Source: Alphaproteobacteria bacterium UBA4588
Lineage (GTDB): Bacteria > Pseudomonadota > Alphaproteobacteria > Puniceispirillales > Puniceispirillaceae
Length of the DNA: 55,072 nt
Assembly (NCBI GenBank): GCA_949529445.1
Contig: CATISA010000032.1
Location: forward strand, 1 to 55,072
Reading direction: 5' to 3'
Part shown: in pieces, positions 8,973 to 15,589 of the stretch
How the letters are laid out: each line of letters starts with the position of its first letter
Position numbering within the stretch: position 1 is the first letter of the stretch
Made by a program: the position numbers and the translations under genes
Notes under the pieces: generated by a model
Database searches by the model: none
Told to the model about the DNA's origin: nothing
The model's input: the letters and a program-made list of their open reading frames with translations, nothing else

Positions 8973-9019
8973 TATCGGTCCACTGGTCATAAAAAACGTC
9001 TAAGGAGGTGACACGGTAT

Positions 9020-10819
9020 ATGAGAATGGCACAGAGCAGCCAGTCGCTTTCGGGTGCTATATGGCATAAGGCGCCCTCTCTCCTATCAGAGGTGCAAACA
9101 CAGCGGATGGCCCAGCATTTACGACAGGCACATAGCGTCCCTCTTGCGATTGCGATGCATCTGGCACGTATAGGCGTTACATCAGACACACTAGATGATT
9201 TTCTTGAGCCGCGTTTGCGCAATCTACTGCCTGACCCCTTGGTTATGTGCGATGCAGATAAGGCAATTAGCCGTATTTGTGATGCGATTCAAGATGGTCA
9301 TCCCATCGGTCTTTTTGGTGATTATGATGTTGATGGTGCCTGCTCAGCCGCCCTGTTCAGGCAGGTTCTTGGGCAGTTTGACATTCCTGTTTATTGCCAT
9401 ATTCCTGACCGCTTTTCTGAGGGCTATGGGCCAAATATCGCGGCCCTTCAAAAATTAAAAGAGAAGGGCGCGCGCCTTATCATCACAGTTGATTGCGGTA
9501 TTACCGCCCATGAACCTCTGGCAGAAGCCGCAGCGCAGAATATGGATATTCTGGTCATCGACCATCACAAAGCGGGTCCAACCTTGCCGATTGCAACAGC
9601 CGTTGTGAACCCAAACAGGCTGGATGATGATAGTCAACTTGGCTATCTGTGTGCTGCAGGAGTTTGTTTTCTGTTGCTTGCAGGCGTGATGCGGGAATGT
9701 CGGGTACGCCAAATTACACCGCCATCAGGCACAATGCCAGACCTACTGACCTTGCTTGATATAGTGGGGCTTGCAACAGTGTGTGATGTTGTCCCATTGC
9801 AGGATATTAATAGGGTGTTTGTGAAGCAGGGATTAAAAATACTCGCGACCCGCCAGAATATTGGTTTGCGGCATTTATGCGATGTTGCCGGACTTGCTAC
9901 TTCGCCAACCACTCATACGCTTGGGTTTCTGCTCGGTCCGCGCATTAATGCAGGGGGGCGACTTGGTCAGTCCGATCTTGGGATACAATTGCTGACAGCA
10001 CAAGATGCTGATATTGCCGGCTCTCTTGCTATCAGGCTAGATGAATTGAATGGTGAAAGACGCGCAACCGAACAGGCTGTTCAATTACAGGCAGAAGCAT
10101 TAGCAGAAGAGCTGCTGACAGAAGATTCTGCACGGTCGGTTTTAGTCCTGTCTGGGGAGGGCTGGCATGAGGGTGTTATTGGCATTGTTGCGGGCAGATT
10201 GAAGGATAAATATAACCGGCCAGTCATTGTGATTGCTTTTGATAAAGAAGGCAGAGGCAAGGGATCTAGCCGGGGTGTGCCGGGCTTGTCATTGGGTGAT
10301 ATTATACAGGCAGCGCGGCAAGAAGGCCTGTTATTATCTGGTGGCGGGCATGATATGGCGGCAGGATTATCGTTGCATCGCGATAAACTCTCTGCATTCA
10401 CTAATTTTATTACCCAGCGGGCCCGTGCAGCCTTTGGTGATGCGCCACCAGCACGGTCTTTTGTTGCCTCACACACTTTGTCAGTGGCTGGATGTACATC
10501 AGAGATTACTGACTGGTTAGAAAAGGTAGGTCCTTTTGGCGCGGGTCATCCAGAACCACGCTTTATTATCACGCATTGCCAGTTAAAAAATCTGCGGTGG
10601 GTTGGTTCTGAAAAACAACACCTTTCTGTTCAGTTGGATGACAAAACGGCTCGTCCGCTCCCTGCCATCTGTTTTTCAGCCGCAACCACGCCCCTTGGCA
10701 GGGCGCTGGTAGCAAACCCTGACCCAGGCCCAGTCTCAGTTTTAGGTAGGGTGAGGGTCGATAATTTTCGTGGCGGCGGCGCTGTCCAGCTCCATATTGA
10801 AGATATCGCTATTGGCTAG
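9020..10819 (+). CDS. recJ: Single-stranded-DNA-specific exonuclease RecJ
   Basis: 5'-3' ssDNA exonuclease of recombination and mismatch repair. 599 residues from the ATG at 9020. Motifs in order: DYDVDGACSA (~100) and DCGIT then DHHKAG (~180) of the DHH phosphoesterase domain; GGRLGQSDLG; then the DHHA1 region with GSSRGVPG and SGGGHDMAAG (~440), and a C-terminal OB-fold-like region. A strong Shine-Dalgarno AAGGAGG (9002-9008) sits 11 bases before ATG 9020; the in-frame GTG at 9008 overlaps that site and is unlikely, and ATG 9026 is an alternative. Probably co-transcribed with hom. Confidence 0.95.
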   Translation: MRMAQSSQSLSGAIWHKAPSLLSEVQTQRMAQHLRQAHSVPLAIAMHLARIGVTSDTLDDFLEPRLRNLLPDPLVMCDADKAISRICDAIQDGHPIGLFGDYDVDGACSAALFRQVLGQFDIPVYCHIPDRFSEGYGPNIAALQKLKEKGARLIITVDCGITAHEPLAEAAAQNMDILVIDHHKAGPTLPIATAVVNPNRLDDDSQLGYLCAAGVCFLLLAGVMRECRVRQITPPSGTMPDLLTLLDIVGLATVCDVVPLQDINRVFVKQGLKILATRQNIGLRHLCDVAGLATSPTTHTLGFLLGPRINAGGRLGQSDLGIQLLTAQDADIAGSLAIRLDELNGERRATEQAVQLQAEALAEELLTEDSARSVLVLSGEGWHEGVIGIVAGRLKDKYNRPVIVIAFDKEGRGKGSSRGVPGLSLGDIIQAARQEGLLLSGGGHDMAAGLSLHRDKLSAFTNFITQRARAAFGDAPPARSFVASHTLSVAGCTSEITDWLEKVGPFGAGHPEPRFIITHCQLKNLRWVGSEKQHLSVQLDDKTARPLPAICFSAATTPLGRALVANPDPGPVSVLGRVRVDNFRGGGAVQLHIEDIAIG

Positions 10820-10922: not shown

Positions 10923-10998
10923 GTCCCGTTCGTCTAGTGGTTCAGGACACCGCCCTTTCACGGCGGCAACACGGGTTCGAATCCCGTACGGGATGCCA
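10923..10998 (+). tRNA. tRNA-Glu (anticodon TTC)
   Basis: Complete 76-base cloverleaf including an encoded CCA. The 7-base acceptor stem is GTCCCGT with ACGGGAT (a G-U pair at the end), the anticodon stem-loop reads CCGCC CTTTCAC GGCGG with anticodon TTC, and the T arm is ACGGG TTCGAAT CCCGT. Its 3' part from 10950 is repeated at 14285, marking it as the probable integration target of the TRAP cassette that follows. Confidence 0.97.
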
Positions 10999-11038
10999 CT
11001 TAACTTTAGTTAATATATTCATACATCTAACAAGCCCT

Positions 11039-11067
11039 CAGCCTCTGGTTTGGGGGCTGTTTGTTTG
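11039..11067 (+). terminator. Probable intrinsic terminator after tRNA-Glu
   Basis: Stem CAGCCTC (11039-11045) with GGGGCTG (11053-11059), one G-T wobble, 7-base loop, followed by an interrupted T-rich tract (TTTGTTTGTGTTTGTT). It lies 40 bases after the tRNA. Confidence 0.55.
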
Positions 11068-11157
11068 TGTTTGTTATAGTTTTTCTTGCTCTAAATTTCC
11101 AATGTTTTGAGACTGTTATTGTAAATTCAAGAAAAACGATATTTGTATGTCCTCAAG

Positions 11158-11180
11158 GGCGGCAACACGAGTTGGAACTC
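11158..11180 (+). repeat. Degenerate third copy of tRNA-Glu T-arm region
   Basis: GGCGGCAACACG followed by AGTTGGAACTC matches the tRNA-Glu segment around its variable loop and T arm in 19 of 23 positions. It lies 24 bases from the dctM stop codon and may mark an older attachment site or an internal boundary of the cassette. Confidence 0.4.
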
Positions 11181-11203
11181 TATCTCAGAGAGGATGGCCG
11201 TGA

Positions 11204-12475
11204 TTAATGGCGCAAGAGTGAGGGTAGCCAGGTTGAAGCTTCGGGAATTAGAATCATAATAATTCCATAAAAAATACCAACACCGACAAATAGAGGCACC
11301 TCTCGAAAAGCTTTTGCTGGATTTTCTTGGATGACGCTTGCGCTTGTATAGATACCAACACAAACTGGAGGTGTAATCATACCAATCCCTGCAAAGGCAA
11401 CAAAAACTACGTAGAGATGAAGCAAACTTTCGTCGAAGGATAATGTGATTGCTGCAAAAATGGGAACAGTAAGGTAGAATACTGGAACAATTTCGATGAA
11501 TGTACCAAGCAGCAAACAAGTGACTGCAAGAGCTACCCAAAACAGCGCAAAAGTCGCACCCATTTCTGTGAAGTAACTTACGATTTGTTGCGGTATTTGA
11601 CTGTAAGTTAGAACAACGCTTAGGAAAGTTGCGGTAGCGATTATTGCAAAAATGATCGCTGTAATTGTTGCTGTTTCTCGTAATGCAAGAATTAATGATT
11701 TAAGTGTTAGTTCTCGATAGATGAGAAAACCCATAAAAATCGCCCAAATACCAGCTACTGCTGCAGATTCTGAGGGGGTAAGCAAGCCTGCATAAATTCC
11801 TCCTAAAATTATAACTGGTGTTAGCAGTCCAGGAAGTGCCGCTAAAAAACACCGCCATCTCTCTGCTGCTGATGCTGGTTCCGGGTTTCGAATGTTTCGA
11901 CATTTTATAAGAACAACTAGTACCATTAATAATAATAAAATAAGTCCGGGTATAACACCTGCCGCAAAGGTTTGGGAAACGGGGACATTTGTTAATGCAC
12001 TAAACAATATAGCCGCATTAGATGGAGGTATGAGAGCTTCAAGAAGAGCCGCAGAAGCTGCTAGGACAATGACAAATGGTTTTGGATAGCCTTGTTCAAG
12101 CATTTTAGGCATCATAATGGTGCCGACTGCTGTGATGGCAGCAAGTATAGACCCACAAAAGGCAGCAAAGAACCCCATCGCTATTACCATAGCAATACCA
12201 AGCCCTCCAGGCCAATGTCCAACAAGTGCTGTTGCAAAGTCCACTAGGCGTTTTGCAGCTCCACCTCTTAACATAGCCATTCCGGCAAAGATGAATAATG
12301 GAACCGCAACTAGTACATGCTTTGTCATAGCGCCAAAAGATACCTGAATCAGAGTAGACCACGGCAAACCAAGGCCGAAAATTGCTGCTGCTGAGCTGCC
12401 TATTCCAAAGACTAAAAATATAGGTACCGATAGAATTAGAAGTATGAGTGATGAAAAAATTGCAAGACTGTACAT
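11204..12475 (-). CDS. dctM: TRAP transporter large permease subunit (DctM type)
   Basis: The ion-coupled membrane channel of a tripartite ATP-independent periplasmic transporter for organic acids or similar solutes. 423 residues and almost wholly hydrophobic, with about 12 predicted membrane segments. DctM signatures include MLRGGAAKRLVDFA, GGLGIAMVIAMGFFAAFCGS, ALIPPSN and FAGIGMITPPVCVG. It follows dctQ by 6 bases, and dctP-dctQ-dctM form one minus-strand operon. The substrate cannot be deduced. The gene ends 24 bases from a degenerate tRNA-Glu repeat, at the edge of the proposed cassette. Confidence 0.92.
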   Translation of the reverse strand: MYSLAIFSSLILLILSVPIFLVFGIGSSAAAIFGLGLPWSTLIQVSFGAMTKHVLVAVPLFIFAGMAMLRGGAAKRLVDFATALVGHWPGGLGIAMVIAMGFFAAFCGSILAAITAVGTIMMPKMLEQGYPKPFVIVLAASAALLEALIPPSNAAILFSALTNVPVSQTFAAGVIPGLILLLLMVLVVLIKCRNIRNPEPASAAERWRCFLAALPGLLTPVIILGGIYAGLLTPSESAAVAGIWAIFMGFLIYRELTLKSLILALRETATITAIIFAIIATATFLSVVLTYSQIPQQIVSYFTEMGATFALFWVALAVTCLLLGTFIEIVPVFYLTVPIFAAITLSFDESLLHLYVVFVAFAGIGMITPPVCVGIYTSASVIQENPAKAFREVPLFVGVGIFYGIIMILIPEASTWLPSLLRH

Positions 12476-12481
12476 TAATTA

Positions 12482-12994
12482 TTACCCTCTCAAAGCTTGC
12501 AAATTTATCAATTCAGCAAGAATGAGTTCAACTGAGAAAAGTGCTAAAATTCCAAATCCAGTTGGAAAGGCAAGATATACCCACCAAATAGGAATCTCGA
12601 TTTCGAGTTCCATAGTTTGACCCAACATGAAATATAAATTTGTGGCTTCAAGCCCTGCAATTAAAAACACAATTGATGCTAAAAGGGCAATGAGTGCGAT
12701 TAGCAGCCTGAGCATTGATAACTGCCAATTTTTGAGGAAAATAGTCAATACATCTACTTTGATGTGGCCACCTGATTTTAGCAGGGGACCTAGAAGTGGA
12801 AACACTAACCAGCTTGATAACACTGGTGGTAGTTCGATAAACCAATCATAACCCGTTCCTGAAACATATCTGATTAGAGCACTTAAAAAAAGAGCGAGCA
12901 CCATATTTGCAACGATAAATATTGCAAGTGAATAAATGGCTTTTTCAAGCCATTTATTCGTTGTTGATATGAAGGAATGTGCTGCACTCAGCAC
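12482..12994 (-). CDS. dctQ: TRAP transporter small permease subunit (DctQ type)
   Basis: Small integral membrane subunit that pairs with DctM in TRAP transporters. 170 residues with four hydrophobic segments, around residues 20-42, 57-75, 96-118 and 138-160, the expected DctQ topology. The first ~17 residues are polar. It lies 36 bases after dctP and 6 bases before dctM on the minus strand. Identification rests on topology and operon position more than on strong motifs, as is normal for this divergent family. Confidence 0.87.
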   Translation of the reverse strand: MLSAAHSFISTTNKWLEKAIYSLAIFIVANMVLALFLSALIRYVSGTGYDWFIELPPVLSSWLVFPLLGPLLKSGGHIKVDVLTIFLKNWQLSMLRLLIALIALLASIVFLIAGLEATNLYFMLGQTMELEIEIPIWWVYLAFPTGFGILALFSVELILAELINLQALRG

Positions 12995-13030
12995 GGCTGA
13001 CCTCTGCCAAGTACAACATCACTCAAGAGA

Positions 13031-14050
13031 CTATTTGCTTGCATAGTTTTGAGCCTCAGAAAGTGTATCCTTATCAAACATATCTGCCATTGCAGGCATT
13101 ACTTTTTCTTGCATCAGTTTGTCAAACTTTGCTTTTTCGTCGCCGGAGAGTTCTGTAATTTTACCGCCACGCTCAACAAATTTTGTTAAGGTTTGCTCTC
13201 CAGCATTAAGGATCGTATTCGTTGAAATTGAACCAACCTCAGCACCAACAGTAAGAACGAGATTTCTTAGATCTTCAGGCAGGCTGCTCATCCAGTCCTT
13301 GTTTGCCATAATGTAGGCGTCAGCAAAATACTGATAGGGTTTTTGCCCATATGAAAGAAATTCCCACCAACTATATGCTTCAATTGAGCCAGGGGGGCTA
13401 TTGATGGTATCAATCATTCCAGTTTGGAGTGAAGTGTAGACCTCGCCAGTTGGCAATGAAACTGCATTTGCTTCTAGAGCCTTCCACATAGGCAATTCAC
13501 TTTTTAATAAGCGCCTTGCTTTTAAACCCTTCATGACATCGATGCCAGTTAACTCACGCGCACTGCTGAAAGTCATCACTGGACCCACTGGATTATACAT
13601 AATTAGCTGTGATTTACTCTTCGCTGTAATGTCATTCCAAATCGCTTGTCCTTTAGCAGAGTCTTTAAAAAATCCACGTTGTTGTTCATAAGACGAAAAT
13701 AGACCGGGGTATGACGCTACGTTGAAGTTTTTGTTTATTGGAGGAAAACTTACTACGCCAACCACTCCACCTAGCTCTACAGCTCCAGATGTTATTGCAC
13801 CTAAAACTTCACGAATACCAAATAGCTGCTTAGACGGGTAATATTCAATTTTTAGCCTTCCATCTGACCTTTTTGTGACCTCGTCTGCAAACATTTGTGC
13901 ATGAATTGAACTTTGGTGCGTTGGGCTCCAATGACCTGACATTCGCGCTATAATTTGTTCTGCGTTTGCTTGGAAAGAGGTCACCACAACAATTAACGCG
14001 GCTATAAGGGAAACTGGTCTTATTATGCCGTTACTAAGGTATTTCCACAT
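13031..14050 (-). CDS. dctP: TRAP transporter substrate-binding protein (DctP type)
   Basis: Periplasmic receptor that delivers solute to DctQM. 339 residues with an N-terminal Sec signal peptide ending near FQANA (~27-31). DctP-family features include LFGIREVLGAITSGAVELGGV and the downstream GLKARRL segment that contains the conserved Arg contacting substrate carboxylates in characterised DctP proteins, followed by TGEVYTSLQTGMIDTINSPP. First gene of the operon, with AGGAG about 9 bases upstream of the ATG. The conserved Arg suggests a carboxylated ligand; the identity is unknown. Confidence 0.93.
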   Translation of the reverse strand: MWKYLSNGIIRPVSLIAALIVVVTSFQANAEQIIARMSGHWSPTHQSSIHAQMFADEVTKRSDGRLKIEYYPSKQLFGIREVLGAITSGAVELGGVVGVVSFPPINKNFNVASYPGLFSSYEQQRGFFKDSAKGQAIWNDITAKSKSQLIMYNPVGPVMTFSSARELTGIDVMKGLKARRLLKSELPMWKALEANAVSLPTGEVYTSLQTGMIDTINSPPGSIEAYSWWEFLSYGQKPYQYFADAYIMANKDWMSSLPEDLRNLVLTVGAEVGSISTNTILNAGEQTLTKFVERGGKITELSGDEKAKFDKLMQEKVMPAMADMFDKDTLSEAQNYASK

Positions 14051-14092
14051 TTGATTTCTCCTGTCATCGTTCTCATTTTAATAAAACGTTAC

Positions 14093-14113
14093 AGCGAAAG
14101 CGCTCCAAGTCAA
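14093..14113 (-). promoter_or_regulatory. Possible dctP promoter with embedded inverted repeat
   Basis: Reading the minus strand, TTGACT (14113-14108) is a good -35 match. It is followed within 4 bases by the inverted repeat AGCG-CTTT-CGCT (14104-14093), and a poor -10 TAACGT follows after a 16-base spacer. A repressor site overlapping the promoter is a plausible reading; no regulator gene is nearby. Confidence 0.3.
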
Positions 14114-14284
14114 ATTCAGGAGTTTTTATTTCACAAAAGTTAAACTCTAAAATCAGTAACTGTTGCAATGTAAAAACCTAGGTGAGCTTTAAAAGTGGTC
14201 CAAGTTTCTGGCTGCCATGTGGTCTCACTGGCAACCAAAACACCCCATAAACTGCGAAAAAACACCCTCTAAAACTGCGTAAAT

Positions 14285-14344
14285 CCGCCCTTTCACGGCG
14301 GCAACACGGGTTCGAATCCCGCACGGTATGCCACTTCTCTTTAG
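14285..14344 (+). repeat. Displaced copy of the tRNA-Glu 3' half (candidate far attachment site)
   Basis: Repeats tRNA-Glu 10950-11009 from the anticodon stem through CCA and a few bases beyond, with four substitutions in 60 (first 37 identical). It has no 5' half (no acceptor 5' strand or D arm), so it is not a functional tRNA. Surrounding bases 14051-14467 show no ORF. Confidence 0.85.
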
Positions 14345-14467: not shown

Positions 14468-15589
14468 ATGAAGAGAAATGTGATGACACATCCCCCATTG
14501 ACGACCTTAAATGAAAGCCTGCCATCAACAGTTCCATTTGTGGGACCTGAAACTCAGGAACGCCAACTAGAGCGGGAATTTCTGGCACGTATTGGCGCGA
14601 ATGAAAGTGTGTTCGGTCCATCGCCTCTGGTTTGCGAAGCAATTAAGCAGGAGGCTGGCGCAATTTGGCAGTATGGCGATCCAGAAAATTTTGATTTGAA
14701 AGTGGCTCTGGCACAAAAACATAAAGTTGATTTCAGCAATATCGTGATAGGCGAAGGGATAGATGGGCTACTTGGCTATTTGGTAAGGCTGTTTGTGACG
14801 AAAGATGTATCTGTTGTGACAACTGATGGTGCCTATCCAACATTCAATTATCATGTAATTGGATTTGGTGGCACACTTATTAAAGTCCCATTTTTACATG
14901 ATCATGAAGACCCATCAGCTATCATTAAAATGGCGCATGATACACAGGCTCGTCTGGTCTATGTCTCAAATCCCAACAATCCTATGGGCACATTTCATGG
15001 TCCTGAAATAATTCATAAAATGCTTCAGGACCTGCCTAAAGAATGTTTGCTATGTCTTGATGAGGCTTATGCAGATTTTGTTGAGGAGAGCGCGTTACCT
15101 GTATTTGATGCTAACCATCCACAGCTTATCCGGTTTCGCACATTTTCAAAAGCCTATGGGCTTGCTGGAGTAAGAGTTGGCTATGCCATCACAAACGCAT
15201 CGCTTTCAACAGCGTTTAATAAGGTAAGGAACCATTTCGGCGTGAATCGGTTGGCTCAGGTGGCAGTACTCGCCGCGTTGAGTGATACGGCTCACCTTGA
15301 AGCTGTGAAGGCACAAGTAAAGCACTCTCTGGCGCGCATTGCTGATATTGCGGCTGCCAATCACTGTAAAGCGATAGCTTCACGAACGAATTTTATTGCG
15401 ATAGATTGCATGAAGGATGGTGCATTTGCCCAGCGCGTTCTTGCCGTATTGATCAGCAAGGGTATGTTCGTGAGAATGCCGGCTGTTGCACCCCAAAATA
15501 GATGTATTAGGATATCTGCTGGCACCGAACAGCATCTAGATTTATTCGAAAAGATATTCCCTGAGGCTTTAAAGATTGCTGAACAATAA
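14468..15589 (+). CDS. hisC: Histidinol-phosphate aminotransferase-like PLP enzyme
   Basis: Class II aminotransferase, 373 residues, the HisC length. Visible features are the N-terminal ARIGANES substrate loop, the SNPNNPMGT motif, LDEAYADF around the PLP-ring Asp, the PLP lysine in FSKAYGLAGVRVGYA, and the C-terminal IRISAGT Arg. HisC normally interconverts histidinol phosphate and imidazole acetol phosphate, but HisC-like paralogues also act on aromatic or other amino acids, and no his genes are nearby. The downstream signal-less binding protein follows by 40 bases. The ATG at 14483 has an AAGAGA 7 bases upstream and is an equally good start. Confidence 0.85.
   Translation: MKRNVMTHPPLTTLNESLPSTVPFVGPETQERQLEREFLARIGANESVFGPSPLVCEAIKQEAGAIWQYGDPENFDLKVALAQKHKVDFSNIVIGEGIDGLLGYLVRLFVTKDVSVVTTDGAYPTFNYHVIGFGGTLIKVPFLHDHEDPSAIIKMAHDTQARLVYVSNPNNPMGTFHGPEIIHKMLQDLPKECLLCLDEAYADFVEESALPVFDANHPQLIRFRTFSKAYGLAGVRVGYAITNASLSTAFNKVRNHFGVNRLAQVAVLAALSDTAHLEAVKAQVKHSLARIADIAAANHCKAIASRTNFIAIDCMKDGAFAQRVLAVLISKGMFVRMPAVAPQNRCIRISAGTEQHLDLFEKIFPEALKIAEQ

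Follow-up and report, generated by a model that had tools for sequence, protein, structure and literature searches.

The window analysed here is a stretch of 55,072 nucleotides, contig CATISA010000032.1 of the alphaproteobacterium UBA4588 (GCA_949529445.1), a member of the Puniceispirillaceae (SAR116). Its 1.93-Mb genome is called G000 below; other G numbers are relatives' genomes, C numbers contigs, and L numbers loci or viral contigs. At the locus of interest an operon for a TRAP (tripartite ATP-independent periplasmic) transporter stands between an intact tRNA-Glu(TTC) gene, called by ARAGORN at 10923-10998, and a second copy of part of that gene. An earlier note, made from the letters alone, had described a repeat of tRNA-Glu that runs from the anticodon stem through CCA, resembles an attachment (att) site and encloses only dctM, dctQ and dctP. 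Each of these observations was borne out. The direct repeat (10950-11009 and 14285-14344) is 60 nt long with 56/60 bases identical (93%), and the distal copy corresponds at 14285-14333 to tRNA nt 28-76, from the 5' arm of the anticodon stem (CCGCC CTTTCAC GGCGG) to CCA, with 47 of 49 bases as in the genome's own tRNA. A BLAST search of the whole genome finds tRNA-Glu sequence at two places only (E 4e-34 and 8e-17), so the repeat is far beyond chance. The genes between the copies, all on the minus strand, encode DctM, DctQ and DctP (rounded Pfam E 2e-81, 1e-16 and 9e-40, far above cut-off), the full set of TRAP components. In a search of named genomes, the relatives closest to this DctQ are SAR116 / Candidatus Puniceispirillum records. 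Two features go beyond the note: a decayed third tRNA-Glu copy at 11158-11177 and a phage-type attachment arm at 14195-14281.

The att core of a tyrosine recombinase has inverted-repeat arms around an overlap of 6-8 bp, lies in a tRNA gene, and is restored on integration. At the window locus the inverted-repeat core CCGCC-CTTTCAC-GGCGG lies in the tRNA gene, both copies end at CCA, and the tRNA is intact. The features are as follows.

9008..10819, plus strand: recJ (Pfam DHH, DHHA1, RecJ_OB), the upstream flank, which precedes tRNA-Glu in nearly all relatives
10923..10998, plus strand: tRNA-Glu(TTC), attL (ARAGORN), the sole intact tRNA-Glu found in the genome
10950..10966, plus strand: att core, anticodon stem-loop CCGCC-CTTTCAC-GGCGG, a 5-bp inverted repeat with a 7-bp loop (from sequence)
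11032..11063, plus strand: terminator-like hairpin accompanying the tRNA 3' half (from sequence; phage attP sites are laid out alike)
11070..11085, plus strand: P' arm-type site TTTGTTATAGTTTTTC, one copy (from sequence; motif as in phage L144)
11150..11198, plus strand: decayed third copy of the tRNA-Glu 3' part (18/20 match at 11158-11177), edge of a putative gene-less micro-element of ~150 bp
11204..12475, minus strand: dctM, TRAP large membrane subunit (PF06808, E 1.8e-81)
12482..12994, minus strand: dctQ, TRAP small membrane subunit (PF04290, E 1.4e-16)
13031..14050, minus strand: dctP, TRAP solute-binding protein (PF03480, E 8.7e-40)
14195..14281, plus strand: P arm of the att site, homologous to arms of phage attP sites, with GTGGTCCAAG as arm-type motif close to its 5' end (phage-only hidden Markov model E 1.2e-6; model R1 E 2.7e-8)
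14285..14333, plus strand: copy of tRNA-Glu nt 28-76, attR, former 3' half of the tRNA gene (47/49 identical)
14468..15589, plus strand: aminotransferase (Pfam Aminotran_1_2), the first chromosomal gene past the cassette; in G070 a gene of its family comes right after tRNA-Glu

We propose that in the attL gene the 5' half is chromosomal and the 3' half was brought by the element inserted latest.

Cassette rows at tRNA-Glu in SAR116

Partial copies of tRNA-Glu, beginning at tRNA nt 25-33, occur in 11 of the 61 Puniceispirillaceae genomes (G000, G016, G022, G042, G044, G045, G046, G049, G050, G057 and G058). Ten of the 11 supplied a set of 19 cassettes, 1.4-6.2 kb in size (median 3.3 kb, which is also the size of the window's cassette); they stand in tandem rows, with at most four on a contig. 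A six-frame search with an integrase profile, derived from phages and islands, scored four positive controls at E < 1e-90 and found no integrase in any of the 19; the lack of an own recombinase, remarked on earlier for the window, is common to them all.

Upstream, recJ followed by tRNA-Glu is conserved among relatives, and the content downstream varies. In G016 the row reads tRNA, TRAP operon, copy, methyltransferase with flavin adenine dinucleotide (FAD) enzyme, copy, TAXI-TRAP, copy; its genus-mate G022 has this row minus the TRAP cassette, and in G046 the TRAP operon lies past the final tRNA-Glu copy of the row. One type of TRAP cassette is found at differing positions in the row and in differing genera. 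G001, from the window's genus, has genes for LysR, CoA-transferase and glutathione S-transferase at the corresponding place. The earlier note had called for a search for empty sites and for other cargos between the same repeats, and both exist. G070 has tRNA-Glu followed directly by the aminotransferase family found after 14333 in the window; G044, G042 and G045 hold zero, one and two cassettes and share the chromosomal sequence after the last copy, so that G044 is an empty site relative to the other two at the DNA level. Other cargos were seen in G016, G022, G046, G050, G057, G049, G045, G042 and G058. By Pfam, the cargos include transporters (TRAP, TAXI-TRAP, tripartite tricarboxylate and ATP-binding cassette types) and, among others, TauD, an FAD reductase, a beta-lactamase-fold hydrolase, a methyltransferase and DUF1800/DUF1501 proteins.

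The farther a copy lies from the tRNA, the less identical to its own tRNA it tends to be; a row with the newest insertion beside the tRNA should look like this. At least five of the contigs with such rows presumably come from single-cell assemblies, which we take the AG- series to be (G016 AG-911-J17, G046 AG-901-J20, G050 AG-325-I21, G049 AG-447-A06 and G057 AG-390-P06), so metagenome chimeras would not explain those rows. Contig ends at tRNA-Glu (G019, G055, G062, G072, G074-G076) were considered as a sign of polymorphism and dropped, since tRNA-Pro shows similar ends.

The TRAP operon does not follow vertical descent

Between G000 and G016, RecJ is 50-51% identical, and DctM, DctQ and DctP are 91, 75 and 86% identical. 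The TRAP proteins of G046 are 96% identical to those of G059 (RecJ 66%) and 89% identical to those of its genus-mate G016 (RecJ 83.5%). High DctM identity by itself was rejected as proof of transfer: DctM is conserved, at ~75% identity even to Roseibium, and we therefore relied on tree topology and the approximately unbiased (AU) test. In a tree of the concatenated TRAP proteins, G046, a member of genus g8, clusters with genomes of g4. Monophyly is rejected by the AU test for both genera, at p 9e-13 for g8 and p 1e-8 for g4. The topology is not that of vertical descent. A vertically inherited operon, in one place in all relatives with neither empty sites nor other cargos, was the outcome named beforehand as contrary to a mobile cassette, and it is not what the genomes hold.

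Viral contigs with the same attachment site

Upstream of the repeat at the far end of each cassette lies an arm of ~110 bp. With the tRNA-Glu 3' half as search pattern, 35 (L132-L166) of 2.9 million viral contigs matched. All but one lack the tRNA 5' half, the whole tRNA gene being present in L161 only. About 30 carry an attP of the cassette type, composed of arm, tRNA 3' half and terminator; L133 was set aside as its arm differs. The arms, told apart by eye, comprise a main type and variants (L136, L141, L147, L158 and L165; L142 and L152). One family of tyrosine integrases (PF00589 and PHROG integrase) is encoded in 27 of the contigs, usually within ~100-200 bp downstream of the core. Among the neighbouring genes are those for an endolysin, an Erf-type annealing protein, a helix-turn-helix regulator, the small subunit of terminase and a structural protein. 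Among isolate phages this integrase has no close relative: the best match is ~32% identical over part of its length, and no record covers 80%. Three of the 35 contigs (L137, L143 and L151) share the tRNA-Glu core and have a T7-like RNA polymerase, a different integrase and unrelated flanks.

A hidden Markov model (HMM) built from 19 non-redundant arms, all of them viral, matches cassette ends in G046, G057, G050, G022, G049, G016, G045 and the window, with E values from 1e-21 to 3e-5 (14196-14275 in the window, E 1.2e-6); the best value on reversed sequence is 0.35. With a genome-wide arm model applied to the 61 genomes, 16 of the 17 best hits (E < 2e-5) fall on contigs with tRNA-Glu rows. The window's arm, which is absent from that model, is its sole hit in the window's own genome (E 2.7e-8).

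Arm-type motifs and the integrase N-terminal domain

In each phage the P arm has a tandem motif spaced at 10-11 bp, which recurs in the P' arm; GTCCCAG, GGTCACG, GTTATAG and GGCAAC are examples. The P/P' match within phages is 9.93 of 10, against 7.61 when permuted (p 5e-4, the permutation floor). For the nine cassettes next to the tRNA it is 8.89 against 8.07 (p 0.0015). Integrase pairs whose C-terminal halves are on average 95.8% identical, whether or not their motifs agree, are 94-99% identical in the N-terminal third (mean 95.5%) when the motifs agree and 75-83% (mean 78%) when they differ, the pairs not being independent of each other. Four pairs were profiled lengthwise; in the three that differ in motif, identity dips within roughly the first 80 aligned positions. 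Such tracking of motif by N-third identity would be expected if an arm-binding domain and its sites change in concert. Att sites of tyrosine recombinases have arm-type repeats that both arms share and that the integrase N-domain reads, and the phage P/P' match and the N-domain pattern agree with this. In the window one site per arm is recognisable and the two differ, GGTCCAA in the P arm and a single GTTATAG in the P' arm.

A cassette's arm motif would, on this basis, name the class of phage integrase that can serve it, which makes the helper predictable. A scan of the viral contigs for TGGATAC, the motif of a G057 cassette, returned two contigs only, both with arm and integrase, so that one motif scan retrieved phages with the expected att architecture. 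The corresponding scan of viral contigs for GGTCCAA, aimed at the helper phage of the window's cassette, gave four hits (L215-L218) that all lack a tRNA-Glu copy, an arm and an integrase.

A second tRNA site, scars and a possible gene-less element

Partial 3' copies also stand at a second site, the tRNA-Asp(GTC) gene of SAR116, in G041, G007, G044, G062 and G049 (L244-L248). Integrase-free cargo precedes the copy in G041 (L244), an open reading frame (ORF) like aldehyde dehydrogenase, and in G007 and G062 (L245 and L247), an ORF like CobW GTPases, all named by eye. There are also gene-less scars of ~150 bp in which the P' terminator and arm are fused directly to a P arm, after tRNA-Glu in G050 and G020 and at tRNA-Asp in G049 (L235:1356-1650). 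They look as if the interior had been deleted between arm repeats.

In the window, the decayed third copy of tRNA-Glu at 11158-11177 (18/20 identical) reaches a local score of 16, whereas 2000 shuffles gave no more than 11, and has a weak counterpart with the same spacing in G001 and G061. A near-identical TRAP cassette on contig C6 of G061 has GGTCCAA twice in its P' arm; the arm-type sites thus vary, and the sequence on either side of them remains similar. The differing P' motif of the window, together with the decayed copy, therefore suggests that a small gene-less element (window ~10999-11150), resembling the microCIMEs discussed below, may lie beside the tRNA in the window's genus. The tRNA on G061:C6 (L076) is identical to the window's and the TRAP operon 98-100% identical; G061 is assigned to another genus and has a second tRNA-Glu contig, and C6 is probably a binning contaminant.

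Cassettes that may be moved by phage integrases

The best reading of these observations, which we regard as probable, is that the cassettes carry an attP, lack an integrase, and are moved in trans by integrases of temperate phages. Each cassette would consist of its cargo plus a complete attP of phage type, made up of P arm, core with tRNA-Glu 3' half and terminator, and P' arm. A tyrosine recombinase would integrate it at the anticodon stem-loop, swapping the 3' half of the tRNA while the tRNA stays intact, and the displaced old 3' half would end up at the far end of the cassette. Repeated insertion would build tandem rows with the newest cassette beside the tRNA. The recombinase would come from temperate phages with the same attP core and arm architecture, and the arm-type repeats, read by the integrase N-terminal domain, would decide which phage can serve. 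The earlier note had left the recombinase either acting in trans or lost; for its first option there is now a candidate, the integrases of these undescribed temperate phages, which have the cassettes' arm and core in their attP. We infer the movement itself, that is, excision and integration by phage integrases and the route of the DNA between cells. A wider proposal is tentative and somewhat doubtful: SAR116 and a group of undescribed temperate phages may share an open exchange system, in which cellular nutrient operons enclosed by phage attP arms would be 'attP-only' hitchhikers, moved by any phage integrase whose arm-binding domain matches. The arm motif would be a swappable address, altered in step with the integrase N-terminal domain, and the rows at tRNA-Glu and tRNA-Asp would be integron-like stores of cassettes for a streamlined ocean lineage.

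Several observations weigh against phage-driven movement. In the window itself the P' and P motifs are unlike each other; P and P' agree weakly when all 19 cassettes are taken together (p 0.048), and older cassettes have decayed or swapped arms. Both contigs found with TGGATAC have other tRNA 3' halves at the core (one of them tRNA-Asp-like), not tRNA-Glu. The search of the 61 cellular genomes for the phage-type integrase returned weak, short matches only and no integrated helper prophage; DctM, TauD and TAXI-TRAP were searched for in the viral contigs and none was found; and no excised circle, no cassette attP junction and no cassette inside a viral contig was seen. The phages' presumed host is read from the att site alone. 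TRAP operons of the same family also occur in several g4 species at a locus that has neither tRNA nor arm; other routes therefore exist, and not every TRAP transfer used tRNA-Glu.

Some of the same facts would follow if the cassettes were dead remnants, prophages or cargo-bearing phages stripped of their phage genes, with the arms as relics and nothing moving now. The fused P'-P scars of ~150 bp (G050, G020 and G049 tRNA-Asp) are what deletion between arm repeats predicts, a phage-like small ORF is kept beside the arm at one cassette end in G046, and arms distant from the tRNA have decayed. We nevertheless think this unlikely, given that the cargo scanned with Pfam serves host metabolism (transporters, TauD, FAD enzymes), does not consist of phage genes and was unseen in phages, that the youngest cassettes have intact, concordant arms, and that the same cassette is found at differing positions and in differing genera. 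Homologous recombination alone, between tRNA-Glu fragments and conserved flanks and with no site-specific recombinase, has homology to work with in the 49-bp near-identical repeat and the arms, and could account for TRAP operons lying away from the tRNA. It predicts neither boundaries recurring at the anticodon stem-loop core, nor arm-type repeats matching at both ends of young cassettes, nor integrase-bearing phages with the same att, and we consider it quite improbable.

A helper might also be cellular, an integrase borne by an island at the same tRNA. Islands of ~10-12 kb with an integrase of 425-426 aa do occur at tRNA-Glu in G014 (L042) and G015 (L043), and G044 has a 334-aa integrase ~2 kb from a fragment of a row. 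The G014 and G015 islands, however, share only tRNA nt 54-76 and 58-76, which is a different crossover, and are without the cassette arm, while the window's genome offers two strong XerC/XerD-like hits and one short integrase contig without tRNA; very little credence can be given to an island helper. As a vehicle, gene transfer agents are disfavoured: the GTA_TIM family is absent from the 61 genomes, with a positive Caulobacter control.

Relation to known elements

The cis-mobilizable elements (CIMEs) of streptococci are integrase-less, att-flanked elements of 1.2-13 kb in tandem at the 3' end of a gene, mobilised through another element's integrase (accretion), and gene-less microCIMEs of 130-220 bp are known (PMC7563491). 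The SAR116 cassettes are likewise att-flanked, tandem and without integrase, with gene-less counterparts at window ~10999-11150 and at the G049 tRNA-Asp. CIMEs derive from conjugative or mobilizable elements (PMC7563491), whereas the SAR116 arms match the attP of temperate phages and no studied cassette has an integrase; no link to conjugation came to light, though no search aimed at one was made. By analogy, the SAR116 system may work as CIMEs do, a phage taking the part of the conjugative helper; the CIME idea would then cover temperate phages as well as conjugative elements. Dehalococcoides has catabolic operons in tandem islands at the single-copy RNA gene ssrA, with repeats of the RNA 3' end and with 15 islands lacking an integration module; they differ in using the serine recombinase DsiB, a tmRNA (transfer-messenger RNA) target and a 20-bp repeat, and in that many have an integrase (PMC3146451), whereas the SAR116 att is of tyrosine type with arms and no cassette encodes an integrase.

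Tycheposons, the comparison drawn in the earlier note, are given as elements of 4-200 kb with a tyrosine recombinase, in Prochlorococcus and Methylophilaceae, in the passages of PMC10872708 on these elements. They have a tRNA target, a tRNA 3' repeat at the border, nutrient-related cargo and streamlined marine hosts, as our cassettes do; they differ in that the SAR116 cassettes, at 1.4-6.2 kb, reach below that size range and that all 19 lack the tyrosine recombinase. By the recombinase criterion the SAR116 cassette is not a tycheposon, and the likeness stands as one of working only. The same source describes an additive island of 'Ca. Methylopumilus', flexible genomic island 2 (fGI-2), with 20-bp tRNA-Lys 3' repeats before variable islands, some with transporters, and ~79-80% unknown proteins; its passages on fGI-2 report no arm, helper phage or recombinase, which sets that island apart from ours (PMC10872708). 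Among the hitchhiking elements that have been reviewed, CALINs (clusters of attC sites lacking an integron-integrase) are integrase-less cassette arrays mobilised in trans, and they have attC sites and depend on IntI (PMC11389934), whereas the SAR116 repeats are tRNA-Glu 3' halves in an att of phage type. Phage satellites of the PICI/PICMI type (phage-inducible chromosomal islands and their minimalist kind) have their own integrase and regulatory or packaging genes and are packaged by a helper; the SAR116 cassettes have no integrase and metabolic cargo. A few searches of the open-access literature brought up no report of such cassettes in SAR116.

Operons that are bounded by att sites and lack an integrase suggest that passing viruses supply the integration enzyme that moves genes between cells. 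For abundant, streamlined ocean bacteria this would be a possible route to gain or lose uptake systems operon by operon, without transposases or integrases of their own.

Other observations

On contig C20 of G044 (L073, L128) a pair of cassettes with a tRNA copy lies inverted ~15 kb past tRNA-Glu, with the 334-aa integrase ~2 kb further; the layout suggests a rearrangement. The short integrase contig of the window's genome (L129, G000:C66) is 3 kb long and has one complete integrase ORF and one truncated integrase-like ORF. Two further families of the order have partial copies of tRNA-Glu, too (G035:C66, G124:C29, G118:C43 and G091:C96). Caspase-domain proteins (Peptidase_C14) adjoin att copies in two families, at L071:9239-11176 in G046 and at L055 in G035.

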